Below are positions 1 through 35,471 of a DNA stretch of 35,471 nt, piece after piece. Under the pieces are notes generated by a model. That model saw nothing but the letters and a program-made list of their open reading frames with translations, did not search any database and was not told where the DNA came from. The stretch comes from Planctomycetales bacterium. Lineage in GTDB: Bacteria > Planctomycetota > Phycisphaerae > SM23-33. Both the position numbers and the translations under genes were made by a program. The stretch is taken from NCBI GenBank assembly GCA_030612725.1, contig JAUWNJ010000032.1, positions 1-35,471 on the forward strand, given 5' to 3'. Each line of letters begins with the position of its first letter. Position 1 is the stretch's first letter.

Positions 1-793
1 GCAACCCTCGCGTCGGGGACATCCATCCCTGATAGAGCAAGATTCCCACGTCATCGGGGATGGGCATTGTCTCACGGAAGCGATTCGGCGCATCGGTCGG
101 ATTAAAGCCGTCCGGCCTGTTGACGGCATTATAAACAACCATCGGCTCGGCGATTTTGTATCGTTTGGCCATCTCTTTGGCGATGAACGGATTCACGGTG
201 ATAACCTGATCGCAGTAGCGGATGAGACGCTTTTCCAGGCGCGAGAGAGTTTGCTTCTGTGGCCAGGAGAGCGTGTTGATTTCCGGATACAACTCGTGCG
301 AGTCGTAAATCAGGGGCATGCCGAAACGCTGTTTGGCATAGACGGCAACCTTCAGACGGGGCAGGTCGTGGGCATGGATGACATCAGGGTCATACCGCTG
401 CACACGTTTGACGATTGCTGATTCGAGGCATGATAAAGCACTTTTGCGGACCGGCCCCCGCATAACGGCCTCTGCGAACAGCCCCAGCCCCTTCAGGCAA
501 TACGCAGCCATTCGCTTCAGACGGCGATTCAGCACTTTGAGTTTATCCATCGGAAACATTGATGGTGTGCCGTCGTCGCCCGGTCCATTCGAGACCATGC
601 GTTCGGACGACGGCGCCATAAGACAGTGCCGCACCCGCTCAACCTTCACCCGGCCGATTAATTCGAACTCCGGTATGGTTTCGGGACCGTCGGCCAGGAG
701 AATAACCTCGTGCCCCTGGTCGATCAGCGTTTCTGCCTCCTGAATGATCCGCCGATCAATCGCCACGTCATCTGTCAGCATAAGGATACGCAT
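1..793 (-). CDS. Glycosyltransferase family 4, C-terminus beyond window
   Basis: An open frame runs from ATG at 793 to the window edge, about 264 codons. It starts MRILMLTDDVAIDRRI and continues with DVIHAHDLPRLKVAVYAK, then IYDSHELYPE. The H-x-H-D and DSHE(L/Y) pattern is typical of the N-terminal Rossmann half of GT-B retaining glycosyltransferases acting on nucleotide sugars. The visible part ends just after the interdomain segment (VVYNAV), so the nucleotide-sugar-binding E-x7-E half is missing only because of the window edge. It lies 5 bases downstream of the preceding glycosyltransferase and is the last visible gene of the polysaccharide cluster. The family assignment is solid; the transferred sugar cannot be read. 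Confidence 0.85.
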   Translation of the reverse strand, partial: MRILMLTDDVAIDRRIIQEAETLIDQGHEVILLADGPETIPEFELIGRVKVERVRHCLMAPSSERMVSNGPGDDGTPSMFPMDKLKVLNRRLKRMAAYCLKGLGLFAEAVMRGPVRKSALSCLESAIVKRVQRYDPDVIHAHDLPRLKVAVYAKQRFGMPLIYDSHELYPEINTLSWPQKQTLSRLEKRLIRYCDQVITVNPFIAKEMAKRYKIAEPMVVYNAVNRPDGFNPTDAPNRFRETMPIPDDVGILLYQGWMSPTRGL

Positions 794-798
794 GATTA

Positions 799-1836
799 TT
801 ATGAATCCTTTTGGTATGCGTTGATGCACATTCCGGCCACCGCATACATGTCGTGTACTTCCTTTACGTACCGTTTCGATTTTTCACCGGTCTGTGCCCA
901 CCATTCCGGATGCGTAACCCACCGGCCCAGCGTTTCCGCGAAATCATCGACAGAGACGTTTATTATAGGGCAATCCTGATGATACAGACGGAGGACATCC
1001 GGGCGAATATAGCAACATGTGGGTATTCCCAACGCCATCATCTCAACCGCGCATTGCCCATAAGCGCCGATGAGCAACTGGTCCACACCCAAATCGCACG
1101 TGGCGCATATCGACATCGCTTCGGCGTATGTCTTGTTCTGTACAAGGACGAGTTCCAGTTTCAAACCCTGCTTGTTGAGCCGATTAACGGCGTCAACGAT
1201 TATGTCCGTCCCCTTCATTTTTGGGTTCGAGGGTGCGTGAGCCAGTCGAACCGGACGGTCAACACCGGGCCGACCTGGCGGGGTTGCGTCATTGTGCCTG
1301 CTGACAATTGCCTCCAGACGCTCCAGATTAATTGGCTGGGGAAGCAGCGTTGCGCCCGGTACATACTCAAGCAGATCGGGCGTGCTGACAAATATCCCGT
1401 CGGCGTATTCCAGGGCGATGCGTCTTGCGCGTTTGCGATTTCGGCTGCAATTCATAGGCCAGCAGACTGCACACGCGCTGGTTTCGTAAGTTGCTATGGT
1501 ATGTTTGCTGTCGCGGATATCGCATCCGCAGAAGTAGAAAAAGACGCGTTTTCCCATTCGCTTGAGCCACGGTACGTCCCAGAGTTTCGGTCCGCAAAGC
1601 GATTCGCCGAAATAGAAGTGGAACACGTCGAATCTCATCGACCTCGTCAGAAGAAAGAGCGCCCATTGGCCTATTCTACCGGTCGTTGTCGGTGAACTGA
1701 GTGTCTCGTCGCAGGGAAAATCGAAACCTGTGGGATGATAGTTGATGGACCATGCATCGTATCCGAGTTGGCGTTGCGCTTTTGCCAAAACGCCCGCCAT
1801 ACCACCGGTATTTTTCGGTCCGTGAAATATTTTCAT
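799..1836 (-). CDS. Glycosyltransferase (GT4-like), 345 aa
   Basis: The N-terminus MKIFHGPKNTGGMAG resembles the nucleotide-fold start of GT-B enzymes, and the C-terminal half has the expected LAHAPSNPKMKGTDI and GAYGQCAVEMMALGIP segments. The latter matches the region around the family's conserved acidic/Gly-rich sugar-nucleotide site. A cysteine-rich stretch (CGCD, then CAVCWPMNC, residues about 103-128) is unusual for the family and could bind a metal or form disulfides. Its ATG overlaps the stop of the upstream epimerase gene by 4 bases, which indicates translational coupling. It probably adds a sugar to the lipid-linked repeat unit in the cytoplasm; acceptor and donor are unknown. Confidence 0.75.
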   Translation of the reverse strand: MKIFHGPKNTGGMAGVLAKAQRQLGYDAWSINYHPTGFDFPCDETLSSPTTTGRIGQWALFLLTRSMRFDVFHFYFGESLCGPKLWDVPWLKRMGKRVFFYFCGCDIRDSKHTIATYETSACAVCWPMNCSRNRKRARRIALEYADGIFVSTPDLLEYVPGATLLPQPINLERLEAIVSRHNDATPPGRPGVDRPVRLAHAPSNPKMKGTDIIVDAVNRLNKQGLKLELVLVQNKTYAEAMSICATCDLGVDQLLIGAYGQCAVEMMALGIPTCCYIRPDVLRLYHQDCPIINVSVDDFAETLGRWVTHPEWWAQTGEKSKRYVKEVHDMYAVAGMCINAYQKDS

Positions 1837-2927
1837 GACAGCATGGCCTCAATTGCCTCTGCCACCCGTTCGGCGGCAAGGCCCCCCCCGAAAACTTCAT
1901 CCCGCACGTTTTGTGGGATATCCGGATATTGGTTGTCGATGCGTTCGTATGCGTTCAGAATATCTTGGCTGCGCCAACCTGAGAGGATGGACCAACCGCC
2001 CTCGACTATTTCTCGCCACTCGGTCGTCTCACGAAGAACTACGCTGGGTTTGCCCCAGAAAAAGGCTTCCCTCTGAACGCCGCCGGAATCCGTAAAGATA
2101 CATTTAGCGCCCGCTTCCAAAGCCAGCATCCCCAGGTAACCGACCGGTTCAATCGGACGCAACGCTCCGGGCGAATCGACGCTATCGGTATATTCCCGTA
2201 TTTTTCCGGCGACGCGGGGGTGGACCGGAAGGATTACCGGAAGCGGCAGGGCGTCCAGGGCGCTGAGAATGCTCCTTAACTTCCCGGCATCGTCGGTGTT
2301 TTCGGCCCGATGTACGGTTGCCAGGAAATAATCACCCGCCTTCAGGCCCAATCGGTCCAGGATCGTCTTGTCGGCCCGCTCCTTGAAACTGTTGAAGCAG
2401 TCGTACATCAGGTCGCCGGTTCGCACCACGTTTTTGCTCAGGCCTTCTTTATCGAGATTGGACACTGCCGTCGTTGTAGGCGCGCAAAGCAGGTCTGCGA
2501 GACAATCCGTTACTATCCGGTTGACTTCTTCGGGCATTCGCATGTCGAAACTGCGAAGCCCTGCTTCTACGTGTACCAGCGGTATGTGCATCTTGGCCGC
2601 TACCAGCGCGCCGGCGAGAGTTGAATTGGTGTCGCCATCGACCACCAACGCATCGCATGGATGCTCCAGAAGAAACTCCTCCAATGCCGACATCATACGT
2701 CCGGTCTGAGCACCGTGTCCGCCTGAACCTGCCTCCAGGTTCACGTCGGGGCGGTCCAGACCCAGATCGTCGAAGAATATCCTGCTCATTGCCTCGTCAT
2801 AATGCTGACCGGTATGAACGAGAATTTCCCTGTGCCCGCGGCGCATAAGTTCCCGCCGCAGGGCCGCCGCCTGCATGAACTGGGGACGCGCCCCGACAAC
2901 CCGTGTCAATGTAACTGCTTTTACCAT
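1833..2927 (-). CDS. wecB: UDP-N-acetylglucosamine 2-epimerase, non-hydrolysing (first of two)
   Basis: The protein (364 aa) shows the whole family signature: VGARPQFMQAAAL at the N-terminus, HTGQHYDEAMS, GDTNSTLAGAL, HVEAGLRSFDMRMPEE, HRAENTDD, HPRVAGKI, and TDSGGVQREAFFWGKP near the C-terminus. These enzymes interconvert UDP-GlcNAc and UDP-ManNAc, or related 2,3-diacetamido sugars, without releasing UDP, and so supply an N-acetylmannosamine-type donor. The length is normal. It sits 22 bases after a paralogue that carries an insertion. The exact substrate (WecB or WbpI type) cannot be separated by eye. Confidence 0.92.
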   Translation of the reverse strand: MVKAVTLTRVVGARPQFMQAAALRRELMRRGHREILVHTGQHYDEAMSRIFFDDLGLDRPDVNLEAGSGGHGAQTGRMMSALEEFLLEHPCDALVVDGDTNSTLAGALVAAKMHIPLVHVEAGLRSFDMRMPEEVNRIVTDCLADLLCAPTTTAVSNLDKEGLSKNVVRTGDLMYDCFNSFKERADKTILDRLGLKAGDYFLATVHRAENTDDAGKLRSILSALDALPLPVILPVHPRVAGKIREYTDSVDSPGALRPIEPVGYLGMLALEAGAKCIFTDSGGVQREAFFWGKPSVVLRETTEWREIVEGGWSILSGWRSQDILNAYERIDNQYPDIPQNVRDEVFGGGLAAERVAEAIEAMLS

Positions 2928-30064: not shown

Positions 30065-30086
30065 CCGACGGATAGCTATCCGTCGG
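30065..30086. repeat. 22-bp perfect palindrome (CCGACGGATAG half-site), first of three
   Basis: The same palindrome recurs at 30736-30757 and 32452-32473, where it is part of a longer duplication. It directly follows the REP behind galE. It could be a protein-binding site or a further REP-type hairpin. Confidence 0.88.
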
Positions 30087-30113: not shown

Positions 30114-30290
30114 TTTCGGTCCGTAGTCCGTAGTCCGTAGGACTCTGCGAGGACTCTGCGAGGACTCTGCGAGGACCACGTTGTGGAACGAAACGGAACG
30201 AAACGGAACAATTCGGAACAATTCGGAACGAATGGGAACGATTGGGAACGAATGGGAACGATTGGGAACAATTGGGAACAATTGGGAAAG
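30114..30290. repeat. Cluster of short tandem arrays (7-, 11- and 10-bp periods)
   Basis: Within 180 bases three different arrays follow each other: a 7-bp unit GTCCGTA three times (about 30118-30140), an 11-bp unit AGGACTCTGCG three times (30139-30171), and about eleven copies of a 10-bp unit GGAACRAWTS (30185-30290). No gene is seen; long frames across it are simple consequences of the periodicity. Confidence 0.85.
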
Positions 30291-30724
30291 TTTCCAAAAT
30301 TCACAAATCCTTGGCGTGTATGGGTTTGCGTATTTTGAGGTCGTTTTTACGCCCATTTTAAAAAATCCGCCATTGCCTATCTTGCCTAAACGGCCCAAGT
30401 TGATGGTTGATTAGTTGACTGGTTGATTGGTTCATCTGTTTTTCTTTTCTTCTGTTCCTCTGTTTTTCTTTTCCCTAGTCCCTAGTCCCAAGTCCCTAGT
30501 CCCTGTCTTCTCATATTCACTTATCAAAGAACACATAAGCGTACCAAGGACGCTCTGTATTAACTTTTGCGTTCGCGTTTGCGCGCGCAAAGGCGAACAC
30601 AAAACAGATAGCGACGGCATAAGTCCGTTGCGGCCTTGGGAAAAGTTTTTTTGGAATTTTTCGCCTCCCTGATTTTTACGTTCGCCTTTGCGCGCGCAAA
30701 CGCGAACACATGGATTTTTTCATA
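30291..30724. other. Repeat-rich, gene-free stretch
   Basis: Contains pyrimidine-rich sequence and a CCCTAGT-type 7-bp array at about 30474-30505, plus an inverted hairpin pair annotated separately. I see no gene here. Confidence 0.6.
30571..30707. repeat. REPIN-like pair of GTTCGC/TTTGCGC hairpins
   Basis: The 28-bp hairpin at 30571-30598 (GTTCGCGTTTGCGC followed by GCGCAAAGGCGAAC) recurs at 30680-30707 as its exact reverse complement, with 81 bases between. Each copy is itself a near-perfect palindrome with one off-centre mismatch, and that asymmetry shows the second copy is inverted. Confidence 0.88.
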
Positions 30725-30857
30725 AGCGTATAAAGCCGACGGATAGCTATCCGTCGGTGGTCTGCCCCAAAAAAAACTGTATCAGTTGAGTTTCAGGAAG
30801 GTTTTCCAGGAGGCACACAATATAAAGAAAAAAACATGGGTAGCGTCCCCATGTTTT
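30725..30857. repeat. 133-bp duplicated segment, copy 1
   Basis: Nearly identical to 32441-32573. It includes the 22-bp palindrome, a TTGAGTTTCAGGAAGG-containing stretch that in minus translation looks like an old gene 3' end (FILCASWKTFLKLN), and a REP of the AAAACAT-stem family. Confidence 0.88.
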
Positions 30858-31010: not shown

Positions 31011-31031
31011 CCGAGAATTATCCGTCTTTCA

Positions 31032-31060
31032 CGGCCGGATAGAGTTTTCGGTAGGGACAA
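31032..31060. repeat. Gene-end module, copy 1 (TTTTCGGTAGGGACAA)
   Basis: A 29-bp module, CGGCCGGATAGAG then TTTTCGGTAGGGACAA, that also occurs at 32612-32640, 33261-33286 and 34961-34984. Here it lies 12 bases beyond the stop of the membrane-protein gene, between that gene and a short-period array. Confidence 0.8.
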
Positions 31061-31072
31061 GAGACAGGTCCA

Positions 31073-31510
31073 TTATTGTTTAATTAAGCCAGCAAGGAAG
31101 CTCATGATATAGTAAAAAACTGCCGTTTGCAGTAATGTTACGATAAAAATACCCACCCCAAAGTTACGCTTTTCTCCAGATATGACCTTTCGGAGTCCCA
31201 ACGAAGACAATCTGGCCCACTCTGCAGAAAGCGGATAAATAATAGGCAGGGTAAAACTGATAAGCGAGGCCCAGTATAGTTTGCTAAGAGGGGAACTCGT
31301 AATCTTTACATGGTCCGCTAGAAAGAAATGGAAAAATAGTATTAGTAAAGGGATTTCGTATATGTACAGTAGAAACCTCTTTGAAAAGCCTTTCCTGATG
31401 CACAGGATAATAATACAGACTAGCGCCGTCATTGCGATTACACTTTCCAAAACGACTATAGGAAGGCAGAAAAGATATAGCATGTTTTCTGGGGTAGTCT
31501 CTATTCTCAT
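31073..31510 (-). CDS. Small polytopic membrane protein of unknown function, 145 aa
   Basis: The ATG at 31510 (MRIETTPENMLYLFCLP) gives a protein with four hydrophobic segments: about residues 11-37 (MLYLFCLPIVVLESVIAMTA...), 48-66 (LLYIYEIPLLILFFHFFLA), 80-97 and 120-140 (GVGIFIVTLLQTAVFYYIM). The loops are short and the connecting segment LSAEWARLSSLGLRKVISGEKR is basic, so probably cytoplasmic. AT content is visibly higher than in galE and the polysaccharide genes, suggesting foreign origin. It is flanked on one side by a RAYT unit and on the other by the gene-end module and array. I do not recognise a family. Confidence 0.6.
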   Translation of the reverse strand: MRIETTPENMLYLFCLPIVVLESVIAMTALVCIIILCIRKGFSKRFLLYIYEIPLLILFFHFFLADHVKITSSPLSKLYWASLISFTLPIIYPLSAEWARLSSLGLRKVISGEKRNFGVGIFIVTLLQTAVFYYIMSFLAGLIKQ

Positions 31511-31588
31511 GGTTCTTATTTCCAATTAAACTCTTTAGCATTCTTGCAGTTGCAGTAATTACAGTAATTAAGGGGACGGAGCACTTAA

Positions 31589-32266
31589 TTATCCTTTCTT
31601 CTGGTTTTGCTTCTTGATTTTTGGGCCTGGTTTTCTTTTTGTCAAGATTCGTCCCAGCAAAGTTTCCAGGTGTTCGATAAATGCGGGCATTCCGCAAGGA
31701 CGGCCAGTCTTCGTGTGGTGGCGAAGACGCTCAACGGCCGCCTCTTCCTCATCCAGCAGCCATTCCCGCCAGTCGCCGACATGATCGGATTTTTCCAGGC
31801 CACCGGATAGAAGCGAATCCTTCCGCAGACCACAGTGGGCCGATGCGCTGCTCCAGGGATACTCTTCTGCCCGCTCGGCCAGACCGGCACGCACCGGATT
31901 TCGCTCGACGTACCGAACGGCTGACCAGAGGTGCCGCTCGTCCAGCGGGCATGAGTAAAACCGCCCCTGCCAGAGGTGTCCGCACAAATCTTGCCGCCGG
32001 TTGATATATGAGGTGTACTGAGAGTTCATCCGTCGCATCGCCTGGCCGAGGGCGTCGGCTGTCTTCGGGACCACCACCAAATGCACGTGATTGGTCATCA
32101 GGCAATATGCCCAGACCTCCAGCCCATACAATTCGCATTGGTCTTTCAGCAAAAGGAGATACTTCTGGCGATCCGCCTCGTTGAAGAAAATATCCTCACG
32201 CCGATTACCACGTTGTGTCAAGTGATGAGGAATATCAGGAACTACGATTCTGGCCAACCTTGCCAT
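31589..32266 (-). CDS. REP-associated tyrosine transposase (RAYT, Y1_Tnp family), copy 1
   Basis: 225 aa starting MARLARIVVPDIPHHLTQRG at ATG 32266; longer frames only add translated REP. The HUH motif is NHVHLVVVP (His60, His62), and the nucleophile is probably Tyr84 or Tyr87 in MNSQYTSYINRR. FNEADRQKYL and RYVERNPVRAGLAERAEEYPWSSA are typical of the REP-associated branch of the IS200/IS605-like superfamily. These single-strand endonucleases recognise REP hairpins. The TAA stop lies at the edge of a REP, and 39 bases of leader separate the ATG from the other REP. All key residues are present, so it may be active. Confidence 0.93.
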   Translation of the reverse strand: MARLARIVVPDIPHHLTQRGNRREDIFFNEADRQKYLLLLKDQCELYGLEVWAYCLMTNHVHLVVVPKTADALGQAMRRMNSQYTSYINRRQDLCGHLWQGRFYSCPLDERHLWSAVRYVERNPVRAGLAERAEEYPWSSASAHCGLRKDSLLSGGLEKSDHVGDWREWLLDEEEAAVERLRHHTKTGRPCGMPAFIEHLETLLGRILTKRKPGPKIKKQNQKKG

Positions 32267-32330
32267 GCAGTAGTAACTACCACGGAAAACGGCCTGCGTC
32301 AAAATAATTAAGTGCTCCGTCCCCTTAATT

Positions 32331-32412
32331 TCGCATGGGAATGGCACAGAACGCATCCGAACGGATACGAGCAGGGCGGAAAGGGGCAATTAAGTGCTCC
32401 GTCCCCTTAATT
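32331..32412 (+). pseudogene. Captured galE 3' tail, copy 1
   Basis: Read in the galE frame it encodes AWEWHRTHPNGYEQGGKG followed by QLSAPSP and stop, the same REP-extended ending as the intact galE (HAWEWHKTHPNGYEQDGKG). It starts abruptly at a REP and ends in one. Several codons differ from the intact galE, so it did not come from that copy recently. Confidence 0.85.
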
Positions 32413-32440
32413 CATTAAGTGCTCCGTCCCCTTAATTCTA

Positions 32441-32573
32441 AGTGTATAAAGCCGACGGATAGCTATCCGTCGGTGGTCTGCCACCAAAAAAACTGTATCA
32501 GTTGAGTTTCAGGAAGGTTTTCCAGGAGGCACACAATATAAAGAAAAAAACATGGGTAGCGTCCCCATGTTTT
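32441..32573. repeat. 133-bp duplicated segment, copy 2
   Basis: Matches 30725-30857 with only a few changes, including the 22-bp palindrome (32452-32473) and the AAAACAT-stem REP (32547-32573). A shortened CCCCATGTTTT array (32574-32605) follows. Confidence 0.88.
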
Positions 32574-32611
32574 CTCCCCATGTTTTCCCCATGTTTTCCC
32601 ATGTTTTCTTA

Positions 32612-32640
32612 CGGCCAGATTTAGTTTTCGGTAGGGACAA
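32612..32640. repeat. Gene-end module, copy 2
   Basis: Same module as at 31032 with two differences in the CGGCCAGATTTAG part. It lies 30 bases beyond the stop of a truncated gene. Confidence 0.8.
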
Positions 32641-32670
32641 CAACAGGCTGTCCCTATTTTCCTTCAAACC

Positions 32671-32874
32671 CTATTGTGGGAGTCGAACTTCACACTCGCC
32701 AGTTTCAATGGTTCCTTTCCAGCAGGGGGTCTCGTCGGCCGGAGCAAAGACAGCCTCCACCTCTCCTTTCAAACGGATAACTGACCCGGAGAGCATACGT
32801 GGCGCCACGCCGTGGCTGAATCTCACCACTTCAGTCCCACCGGGAGGAATCAGAAGTTCCTTCCTCCAATATCC
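32671..32874 (-). pseudogene. C-terminal fragment of an unknown gene cut by a MITE
   Basis: A minus-strand frame of about 67 codons reads WRKELLIPPGGTEVVRFSHG, then MLSGSVIRLKGEVEAVF, and ends GECEVRLPQ with TAG at 32671-32673. It looks like real protein, a beta-rich C-terminal domain, but its 5' side ends exactly at the REP of the 89-bp MITE, and the frame is stopped within that element. No family recognised. Confidence 0.55.
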
Positions 32875-32963
32875 AATTAAGGGGACGGAGCACTTAATTA
32901 TTTTGACGTAGGCTGTTTTCTGTGGTAGTTTCGGTAATAATTAAGTGCTCCGTCCCCTTAATT
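32875..32963. mobile_element. 89-bp MITE/REPIN derived from the RAYT element
   Basis: Two REPs (32875-32899 and 32939-32963) in inverted orientation enclose 39 bases. The first 30 of these (ATTTTGACGTAGGC...GTGGTAGTT) match the reverse complement of the RAYT leader, adjacent to the same REP, with three differences. It therefore has the ends of the autonomous element with the transposase gene lost. Confidence 0.85.
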
Positions 32964-32992
32964 ACCCTTAATTACCTTTAATCTTTAATTTC

Positions 32993-33103
32993 GAGTATCC
33001 CGATTTGGAGGCCATCGTCGCCCACGCATGGGGATGGCACAAGACGCATCCGAACGGATACGAGCAGGGCGGAAAGGGACAATTAAGTGCTCCGTCCCCT
33101 TAA
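32993..33103 (+). pseudogene. Captured galE 3' tail, copy 2 (longest)
   Basis: The galE frame reads EYPDLEAIVAHAWGW then HKTHPNGYEQGGKG and the REP-encoded QLSAPSP stop. It covers more of the gene end than the other copies and differs from the intact galE (QYPSLETIVAHAWEW), pointing to a donor that was a different galE allele. Confidence 0.85.
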
Positions 33104-33250
33104 CTTCATTAAGTGCTCCGTCCCCTTAACTTCGTCCCCTTAACTTCCGGAACTCCCCGGAACTCTGTCCCCGGAACTCCCGTGTCCTGGGAACTCCTGG
33201 GAACTCCTGAACTCCTGTCCCCGGAACTCCGGGAACTCCGGAACTTCTTC
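33081..33250. repeat. Two REPs followed by GGAACTCC array
   Basis: REPs at 33081-33104 and 33108-33130 carry a slightly changed right arm (TTAACT). They pass into roughly ten tandem GGAACTCC-type units, several joined by GTCCCC, the core word of the REP loop. No gene is seen. Confidence 0.8.
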
Positions 33251-33821
33251 ACTTTTCGTCCCGGATGGATTTTTCGGCAGGGACAACAGGGACAATTATC
33301 CATTTACCTTTATTCGTATCAAACTCAAAAACGCCTTGATCCGTAAGTGCTGACCGGCCTACTGCCTTCTTTGCTCGCACCCATTGGTTGTCTATTAGAA
33401 TCTCAAAATTCTTCCCGATAAGACGCTCGTCGAAGTATCCATCCGCATTCAGATCCACCCAAATCCGTCCCTCGTCGATAGGACCGCCGCCGATAGGACC
33501 GCCTGCGTACAATGCCGATGGAGTACCAAGTTCGCCAGCCACTTTATACTCAAAAATAGCCCCTACTTCCTCTTTCATAACATCAATAGACTGCAATCTG
33601 TCGCTCGTAGGTTTGTGGGCTATCTGTACCACGATTCCATCTTTAAGCAGTGGTACCAACAGATTTCCGTCCTTATCTTCACAAATCCCCCATTGCTGTA
33701 CCAAGCGCTCGGCGGGTGTAACAGCCAGATCGAGGATATCTATGACAGCACCCAATATGAGTGCGCAACCAAAACCAAACAAAAAGGTTACAAGGAGTAT
33801 AAGGTATCTGCGCTTTTTCAT
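33249..33821 (-). CDS. Membrane-anchored protein with an EF-hand-like loop, unknown function, 190 aa
   Basis: ATG 33821 (MKKRRYLILLVTFLFGFGCA) is preceded by GGAGAG at 5 bases. A signal anchor spans residues 5-30, so most of the protein is probably outside the cytoplasm. WVDLNADGYFDERL contains D-x-N-x-D-G-x-x-D-E, an EF-hand/dockerin-like calcium loop. The C-terminus (IVPVVPAEKSIRDEK) is encoded by the gene-end module at 33261-33286, so its last residues come from a repeat shared with unrelated neighbours. Base composition is more AT-rich than in the polysaccharide genes. I do not recognise the family. Confidence 0.65.
   Translation of the reverse strand: MKKRRYLILLVTFLFGFGCALILGAVIDILDLAVTPAERLVQQWGICEDKDGNLLVPLLKDGIVVQIAHKPTSDRLQSIDVMKEEVGAIFEYKVAGELGTPSALYAGGPIGGGPIDEGRIWVDLNADGYFDERLIGKNFEILIDNQWVRAKKAVGRSALTDQGVFEFDTNKGKWIIVPVVPAEKSIRDEK
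33261..33286. repeat. Gene-end module, copy 3, coding
   Basis: CCGGATGGAT then TTTTCGGCAGGGACAA. On the minus strand it encodes VVPAEKSIR at the end of the 190-aa protein. Confidence 0.8.
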
Positions 33822-34030
33822 AAGAACTCTCCTTATCAAAGGGCCTTGCGCCGTCTGATTATTTTCATTGATTATCAACTCGCGGCACACAAATGCTCGC
33901 CAGGTCTAATTGTCATTTCTTATCTGGACACTTCTTTTCCGTCCCGCTTGTTTCATCTTCTAACTCTAACTCTTCTTCTAGCGAATCCTCCAACCACTCC
34001 TAATCATCTAAATATAATTAAGGGGACGGT
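33822..34030. other. Intergenic, nothing recognised
   Basis: AT-rich and pyrimidine-rich sequence upstream of the 190-aa protein gene. Apart from a half REP at 34016-34030, I see no structure or gene. The promoter of the downstream minus-strand gene should be here. Confidence 0.5.
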
Positions 34031-34053
34031 AATTAAGGGGACGGAGCACTTAA

Positions 34054-34731
34054 TTATCCTTTCTTCTGGTTTCGCTTCTTGATTTTGGGGCCTGGTTTTC
34101 TTTTTGTCAAGATTCGTCCCAGCAAAGTTTCCAGGTGTTCGATAAATGCGGGCATTCCGCAAGGACGGCCGGTCTTCGTGTGGTGGCGAAGACGCTCAAC
34201 AGCCGCCTCTTCCTCATCCAGCAGCCATTCCCGCCAGTCGCCGACATGATCGGATTTTTCCAAGCCACCGGACAGAAGCGGATCCTTCCGCAGACCACAG
34301 TGGGCCGATGCGCTGCTCCAGGGATACTCTTCTGCCCGCTCGACCAGGCCGGCACGCACCGGATTTCGCTCGACGTACCGAACGGCTGACCAGAAATGCG
34401 ACTCGTCCAGCGGGCATGAGTAAAACCGTCCCTGCCAGAGGTGCCCGCACAAACCTTGCCGCCAGTTGATATATGAGGTGTACTGAGAGTTCATCCGTCG
34501 CATCGCCTGGCCGAGGGCGTCGGCTGTCTTCGGGACCACCACCAAATGCACGTGATTGGTCATCAGACAATACGCCCAGACCTCCAGCCCATACAATTCG
34601 CATTGGTCTTTCAGCAAAAGGAGATACTTCTGGCGATCCGCCTCGTTGAAGAAAATATCCTCACGCCGATTACCACGCTGTGTCAAGTGATGAGGAATAT
34701 CAGGAACTACGATTCTGGCCAACCTTGCCAT
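34054..34731 (-). CDS. REP-associated tyrosine transposase (RAYT, Y1_Tnp family), copy 2
   Basis: 225 aa, with about seven substitutions relative to the copy at 31589 (for example INWRQGLC for INRRQDLC, DESHFW for DERHLW, LVERAEE for LAERAEE). The HUH pair (NHVHLVVVP) and the YTSYIN tyrosines are intact, so neither copy can be called dead from sequence. The leader differs from copy 1 at one position, which it shares with the MITE at 32875, suggesting this copy is closer to the MITE's source. Confidence 0.93.
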   Translation of the reverse strand: MARLARIVVPDIPHHLTQRGNRREDIFFNEADRQKYLLLLKDQCELYGLEVWAYCLMTNHVHLVVVPKTADALGQAMRRMNSQYTSYINWRQGLCGHLWQGRFYSCPLDESHFWSAVRYVERNPVRAGLVERAEEYPWSSASAHCGLRKDPLLSGGLEKSDHVGDWREWLLDEEEAAVERLRHHTKTGRPCGMPAFIEHLETLLGRILTKRKPGPKIKKRNQKKG

Positions 34732-34795
34732 GCAGTAGTAACTACCACGGAAAACGGCCTACGTCAAAATAATTAAGTGCTCCGTCCCCTTAATT

Positions 34796-34877
34796 TCGCA
34801 TGGGAATGGCACAGAACGCATCCGAACGGATACGAGCAGGGCGGAAAGGGGCAATTAAGTGCTCCGTCCCCTTAATT
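34796..34877 (+). pseudogene. Captured galE 3' tail, copy 3
   Basis: Identical over 57 bases to copy 1 at 32331 (AWEWHRTHPNGYEQGGKG, then the REP-encoded end). A further 19-base piece of the same tail (GAGCAGGGCGG...) is repeated at 34881-34899 before another REP. Confidence 0.85.
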
Positions 34878-34960
34878 CTCGAGCAGGGCGGAAAGGGGCA
34901 ATTAAGTGCTCCGTCCCCTTAATTCTAATTCTTTCCCCAGCGTCCCCTATTTCCCTATTT
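34878..34960. repeat. Partial tail plus REP duplication and CCCTATTT array
   Basis: 34881-34924 repeats the last 19 bases of the galE tail with its REP (34900-34924). It is followed by AGCGTCCCCTATTTCCCTATTTCCC, a short array whose word TATTT matches the arm of the TATTTT-stem REP seen inside wecB. Confidence 0.75.
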
Positions 34961-35471
34961 CCCGGAGTTTTCGGCAGGGACAACAGCAGTGTTTGCGAGC
35001 AGGCGCCAGAACACTTGCTCTGCAACTTTTGGATCCATGTCCTCTGGTGGGATCAGATGCGCGATTCCTATGTACCGACCATCCCTATCGCAAATATCAG
35101 CGGATAGGTGGCCTCCCTTCCAAGAAGACGAAAATGCTGTCAGATGTGGAAGATCCAGACGAGTAACCGGCGAGTTGTTGATCTTAAGAAGTAGAAGCGT
35201 CTTTATCTTCCGTGCGTCGGCCCCTTTGGCCTTGTCCAAATCTGTCGGTGTCACGTCATATACTGCCGTAAGCAATTCGACGTCAGATTTGTAAGTTTCC
35301 AAGAAATCCCTCGGATTCGGATAGAACCGGCCTATAATATTGAGAACCTCCGGAGAAGGGGCATTGACATAACTCCAATTATCTCCATGATACGCAAATA
35401 TCGCTTTGAATCTGTTACCGAGATGAGTTCCTTGTACTTCTAACCTGCTGAATACTCCTCCATCTTTCTTT
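34955..35471 (-). CDS. Hypothetical protein, N-terminus beyond window
   Basis: The minus frame is open from the window edge to the stop at 34955, at least 171 codons. It reads GGVFSRLEVQGTHLGNRFKA near the edge, then DVELLTAVYDVTPTDLDKAK, and ends VFWRLLANTAVVPAENSGK. No signal, membrane segment or known motif is visible; it looks like a soluble alpha/beta protein. The last residues VVPAENS are encoded by the gene-end module (34961-34984), as in the unrelated 190-aa protein at 33249. The direction of transcription is the same as for the other genes beside this module. Confidence 0.6.
   Translation of the reverse strand, partial: KKDGGVFSRLEVQGTHLGNRFKAIFAYHGDNWSYVNAPSPEVLNIIGRFYPNPRDFLETYKSDVELLTAVYDVTPTDLDKAKGADARKIKTLLLLKINNSPVTRLDLPHLTAFSSSWKGGHLSADICDRDGRYIGIAHLIPPEDMDPKVAEQVFWRLLANTAVVPAENSGK
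34961..34984. repeat. Gene-end module, copy 4, coding
   Basis: CCCGGAG then TTTTCGGCAGGGACAAC. It encodes the VVPAENSGK terminus of the last gene and adjoins a short-period array on its other side. Confidence 0.78.

Follow-up and report, generated by a model that had tools for sequence, protein, structure and literature searches.

The window, the whole 35,471-nucleotide stretch analyzed here, is the entire contig C6 of its source genome (G000), a 3.16-Mb MAG of a Planctomycetales bacterium that is 96% complete. Between 31 and 35.5 kb, the sequence TTTTCGGYAGGGACAA occurs four times without mismatch, at 31045-31060, 32625-32640, 33271-33286, and 34968-34983, always on the plus strand. Each copy overlaps the 3′ end of a reading frame on the minus strand or follows that end closely. 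The first-pass annotation had reported this arrangement, and that observation was accurate and well placed. The first copy follows a 150-aa hydrophobic reading frame of unassigned family (31073..31525, minus strand), whose stop lies 12 bp away. The frame before the second copy, whose stop (32671-32673) is 30 bp away, is no intact gene: only its 3′ part remains (32671..32880, minus strand; ..TGECEVRLPQ and stop), and a palindrome of the AATTAAG type truncates it on the 5′ side. The third and fourth copies lie inside their host frames, a 213-aa frame of unassigned family (33249..33890, minus strand) and a frame of at least 171 aa whose 5′ part is beyond the contig (34955..35470, minus strand), and are indeed translated there as VVPAEKS and VVPAENS. 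A homolog search for the 213-aa frame in 34 relatives found none. In a Pfam scan, the three host frames had no match, and two RAYT genes accounted for every family hit from 31 to 35.5 kb. Protein homology as the cause of the common ends was rejected, since the host frames in the window have neither a Pfam or NCBIfam match nor relatives.

The repeat is far more frequent than composition predicts. With up to three mismatches allowed, eight sites were found in the window, compared to a mean of 0.50 and a maximum of 3 in shuffled sequence, and the whole genome holds six exact copies, while the reversed pattern, used as a control, gave 0. The two exact copies outside the window lie in tandem close to the end of contig C45 (C45:103801 and C45:103818), and all six face in the same direction. 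The true repeat is longer than originally described: the sequence stands as reported, but similarity extends about 10 to 40 bases farther left, and the final A of TTTTCGGYAGGGACAA belongs to the flanking DNA. Beyond the motif, the right flanks of the four window copies are mutually unrelated.

The copies are interspersed with a second type of mobile DNA. A REP-associated (Y1/RAYT) transposase unit at 31566..32330 on the minus strand (PF01797, E 1.6e-14; NF047646, 69.4 bits against a cut-off of 80) is bounded by inverted AATTAAGTGCTCCGTCCCCTTAATT palindromes, and a second RAYT unit at 34031..34795, also on the minus strand (PF01797, E 1.9e-13), matches the first at 97% over an aligned 673 bp. 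RAYT/REP sequences were rejected as the source of the motif: these units have palindromes of their own, and the motif lies outside them, as a neighbor and not a part. The palindromes found between 30039 and 34926 (for example, 32306-32330 and 30831-30856), like those in relatives, have in common a CGTCC segment in the loop, which is combined with three different self-complementary stems (AATTAAG, AAAACATGG, and AAAATAGG). Stems of 6 bp or more flank 18 of 124 CGTCC sites, compared to 0 to 3 for six other 5-mers and 14 for the overlapping CCGTC. The CGTC-tagged repeats described in PMC3733652 are reported there not to flank RAYTs, whereas both RAYT genes in the window are bounded by AATTAAG-type palindromes, which may or may not be of that kind. 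A perfect 22-bp palindrome, CCGACGGATAGCTATCCGTCGG, lies at 30065-30086, 30736-30757, and 32452-32473 and has many dispersed copies in the genome and the genus. Short imperfect tandem units of the GGAACGAAAC type, the GGAACTCC type, and AGGACTCTGCG adjoin palindromes at 30120-30300 and 33140-33250.

The origin of the motif emerged from other genomes. When public genomes were scanned for the 16-mer, most matches, spread across phyla, were due to chance, but a subset carried a GAYGGAR extension on the left, and only matches with this extension behave as element ends. For instance, a Marinicaulis locus (L119) has outward-facing motifs at 755-777 (minus) and 1832-1854 (plus), 1,100 bp apart, which enclose a 346-aa rve_3 transposase, and an Actinomadura locus (L115) has an outward-facing pair, separated by 1,121 bp, on either side of a degraded transposase. 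A search of the relatives with the L119 transposase led to an intact 348-aa homolog (50% identity) in a congeneric genome (L174, on G003:C62; 1492-2538, minus strand), and here the motif, in the form TATGGAGTTTTCGGTAGGGACA, terminates 177 bp beyond the stop codon of the transposase. Because the motif ends the element past the L174 transposase and bounds the L119 transposase on both sides, it very probably represents the outer right terminus of an insertion sequence, one with an rve (DDE) integrase-core transposase intermediate between IS3 and IS481. Membership in the IS3 or IS481 family proper was rejected, as the transposase group scores below both curated NCBIfam cut-offs (109.7 of 160 bits for IS3 and 94.6 of 224 bits for IS481); its plasmid relatives are annotated only as "integrase core domain-containing protein." End sequences are now available for a widespread transposase group that lies beneath these cut-offs. 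The L174 transposase also contains an in-frame dispersed repeat, GCCTGTGGTGAGCCTTGTCGAACCGCTG, at about 2010-2040, which recurs elsewhere in G000, G002, and G003.

Between this element and the window copies lies a graded series that points to progressive truncation. A transposase remnant followed by the same right end is found at L228 (G003:C220), and right-end remnants without it lie behind unrelated genes in G003 and G001 (L052, 94 bp at 91%; L054, 78 bp at 95%). The C45 copy matches the L228 right end over 60 bp at 85%, and the window copies retain only about 20 to 56 bp, the two shortest 20 to 25 bp. A right-end HMM, trained on six related copies and on no window sequence, recovers exactly four sites in the window, after which the next match has an E value of 0.77. 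The best-preserved site, at 33230..33285 (plus; E 2.7e-11), also matches the L052 and L054 right ends over 38 bp at 89%, and the site at 31011..31059 (plus; E 1.3e-8), whose outer end GGGACA falls at 31059 and whose element would extend leftward, matches the C45 right end at 84% over 49 bp. The other two are the short remnants at 34963..34982 (plus; about 20 bp; E 2e-4) and 32615..32639 (plus; about 25 bp; E 7e-4). Judged by sequence, then, the window copies are the same element end, each a putative solo right end. A 41-bp internal match of L052 to the element was discarded as evidence, because the stretch overlaps a dispersed palindrome. No intact element was found in G000, where degraded transposase fragments remain at C63:463-633.

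The boundary of the element can be placed to the base. The nucleotide after GGGACA differs among copies (A, G, C, or T), and for this reason, the element ends are TGTCCC...GGGACA, which gives the TG..CA termini expected for such elements. The junction on C45 fits the same limit. C6 and C45 both break off in one duplicated reading frame, that of the frame at 34955..35470, with eight differences in the last 506 bases, and their identity stops exactly after the GGGACA of an extra C45 copy, where one element end sits inside an older one. That segmental duplication by itself copied one accidental gene end to new places, the earlier likeness to an element end being of no further significance, is highly unlikely. 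Duplication is plainly at work here, in the RAYT units, in 135-bp units, and in the C6 and C45 ends, but the unrelated right flanks of the four window copies and the independent copies that follow unrelated genes of G001 and G003 run against it as the sole cause.

The same divergence exactly at the motif, along with the shared orientation and 3′ position of the window copies, is what would be expected if the motif were a recombination site of the attC type, with each gene and its motif forming a mobile cassette. We nevertheless regard this as extremely improbable, because the motif terminates an intact DDE element and the G026 copies lie upstream of regulators. Moreover, attC core sites (RYYYAAC/GTTRRRY) were not seen, nor a folded attC with R′/R″ core sites: fold z-scores for three of the four window copies (−0.3 to −1.0) are those of shuffled sequence, and in the fourth (−2.3), the motif base-pairs with its flanking sequence. 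No G000 integrase exceeds the TIGR02249 cut-off, the best reaching 87.5 of 265 bits. The first-pass annotation had already reported neither an attC fold nor an integron integrase, and this holds. Its suggestion of a recombination joint stands in one respect, since the motif is a DNA boundary common to unrelated genes, but the boundary is that of a DDE insertion sequence and not a cassette joint; cassette arrays, which it had proposed to look for downstream, were not found. A true integron integrase above the cut-off (381.6 bits) does occur in a genome of the same family (L234; G012:C21:9194-10135).

The left end of the element is less tractable. Inverted terminal repeats are seen in L119, L115, and the outward-facing motif pairs of the planctomycete MAG_44, but they are not recognizable in L174, where the best candidate left end matches at 12 of 22 positions, no better than shuffles. 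As the L174 left end is not recognized, solo right ends might derive from a MITE or from an element whose two ends differ. By-eye comparison of the L119 and L150 flanks revealed no clear target duplication, which solo ends cannot show. A MITE derivative that spread in place of decayed full copies, with left ends too divergent to see, is unlikely yet plausible. Its attributes, two inverted ends, short length, and no transposase, are found together in MAG_44, where motif pairs lie 124, 262, and 264 bp apart, and window copies 31045 and 32625 have a common 135-bp unit on their left (98%). However, that unit carries other dispersed palindromes, which are also present at places lacking the motif, a paired left end is absent from both the window and G000, and the uniform facing of the six exact copies is not that of outward-facing pairs. 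The MAG_44 miniature elements (124 to 264 bp; L107 and L113, 1-134; L150, 2173-2436; L085, 713-974) have the same terminal repeats in several copies, and one ends in GGGACAAGGGACAA.

Whether as a full insertion sequence or a shorter derivative, the element end has a coding consequence. Read inward, one frame gives V V P T E N S I R D K K and a stop, while the other two run on. The tail is carried by the two window frames and by L051, L052, L054, and L227 of the genus; in the window, the last ~12 residues (VVPAEKSIRDEK) and the stop of the 213-aa frame are encoded by the element end, and the frame at 34955..35470 ends VVPAENSGK within the element end. Such tails had been proposed as something to look for in otherwise unrelated proteins, and they proved to be shared by unrelated genes in a way that protein homology does not explain. 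A homolog of the L052 host protein in G011 ends GDDIIVLLEDVRLR, compared to GDDIVVCLGEA-VVPTENSIRDKK in L052, each followed by a stop, so that the tail took the place of only about five native residues.

The proposal that the motif always marks gene ends did not survive outside the window. Over all copies that were classified, a frame runs into the motif at 22 and points away from it at 12 (about 2:1, a rough figure from mechanical ORFs), and several lie upstream of genes, with both G026 copies upstream of regulator genes. We consider it very unlikely that the element preferentially inserts at the 3′ ends of genes, its right end toward the gene, and regularly rewrites C termini, with tolerance or possibly selection of the result; were it so, the rewriting would consist of a fixed 12-residue tail and a stop. 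Still harder to credit is recruitment of element ends as functional gene ends, supplying a stop, an mRNA 3′ end, or a protein tail and kept by selection. The same tail does recur in at least five unrelated small proteins of the genus, but copies decay freely, the host frames are lineage specific, and there are copies that lie past a stop or in front of a gene. VVPTENS-type C termini should not be taken for a domain or a recombination signal; they are transposon debris.

A history that accommodates these observations begins with copies of the element inserting near or inside gene 3′ ends. Their interiors would later have been lost through decay and through invasion by the REP/RAYT repeats that fill the region, so that only solo right ends, some 20 to 95 bp long, remained. 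A gene that enters such an end in the one frame that soon stops would gain a VVP(T/A)E(N/K)SIRDKK tail and then an immediate stop, and unrelated proteins would come to have a common C terminus as a result. Because genes survive insertions near the C terminus, the concentration at 3′ ends needs no special targeting, and the common orientation and placement of the four window copies may reflect chance, the ancestry of local duplications, and tolerance of insertion. The order of insertion before decay and the neutrality of the tails are what we infer. The identity of the motif as an element end, the graded truncation, the derivation of the tail from element DNA, and the end-in-end junction, by contrast, can be read directly from the sequence.

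This is a known kind of genome litter, ordinary in mechanism, and not a new gene-swapping system. The source element resembles the IS3 and IS481 families in its rve_3 integrase core, HTH, transposase of about 340 aa, TG..CA ends, and inverted terminal repeats; it differs in scoring below both family cut-offs, and the window holds only its end and no gene. Like integron attC cassettes, the window copies lie after genes in a shared orientation, but they do so without IntI, an attC fold, or core sites, and with a DDE transposase instead. In Rickettsia palindromic elements (RPEs), one mobile repeat is translated inside unrelated proteins. Those repeats are palindromic and lie in frame within proteins, whereas here a transposon terminus is found at C termini. 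RPE-4 and RPE-6 are named in PMC3733652. The parallel with QMITE1 and QMITE2 of Coxiella burnetii extends to the position in the gene: in many genes, the 3′ end is overlapped by a QMITE end, which contributes C-terminal residues and a stop, and EnhC of C. burnetii strain Dugway gains 33 residues from a MITE (PMC5896051). The QMITEs are complete MITEs of 150 to 400 bp, whereas the copies described here are solo right ends of 20 to 95 bp.
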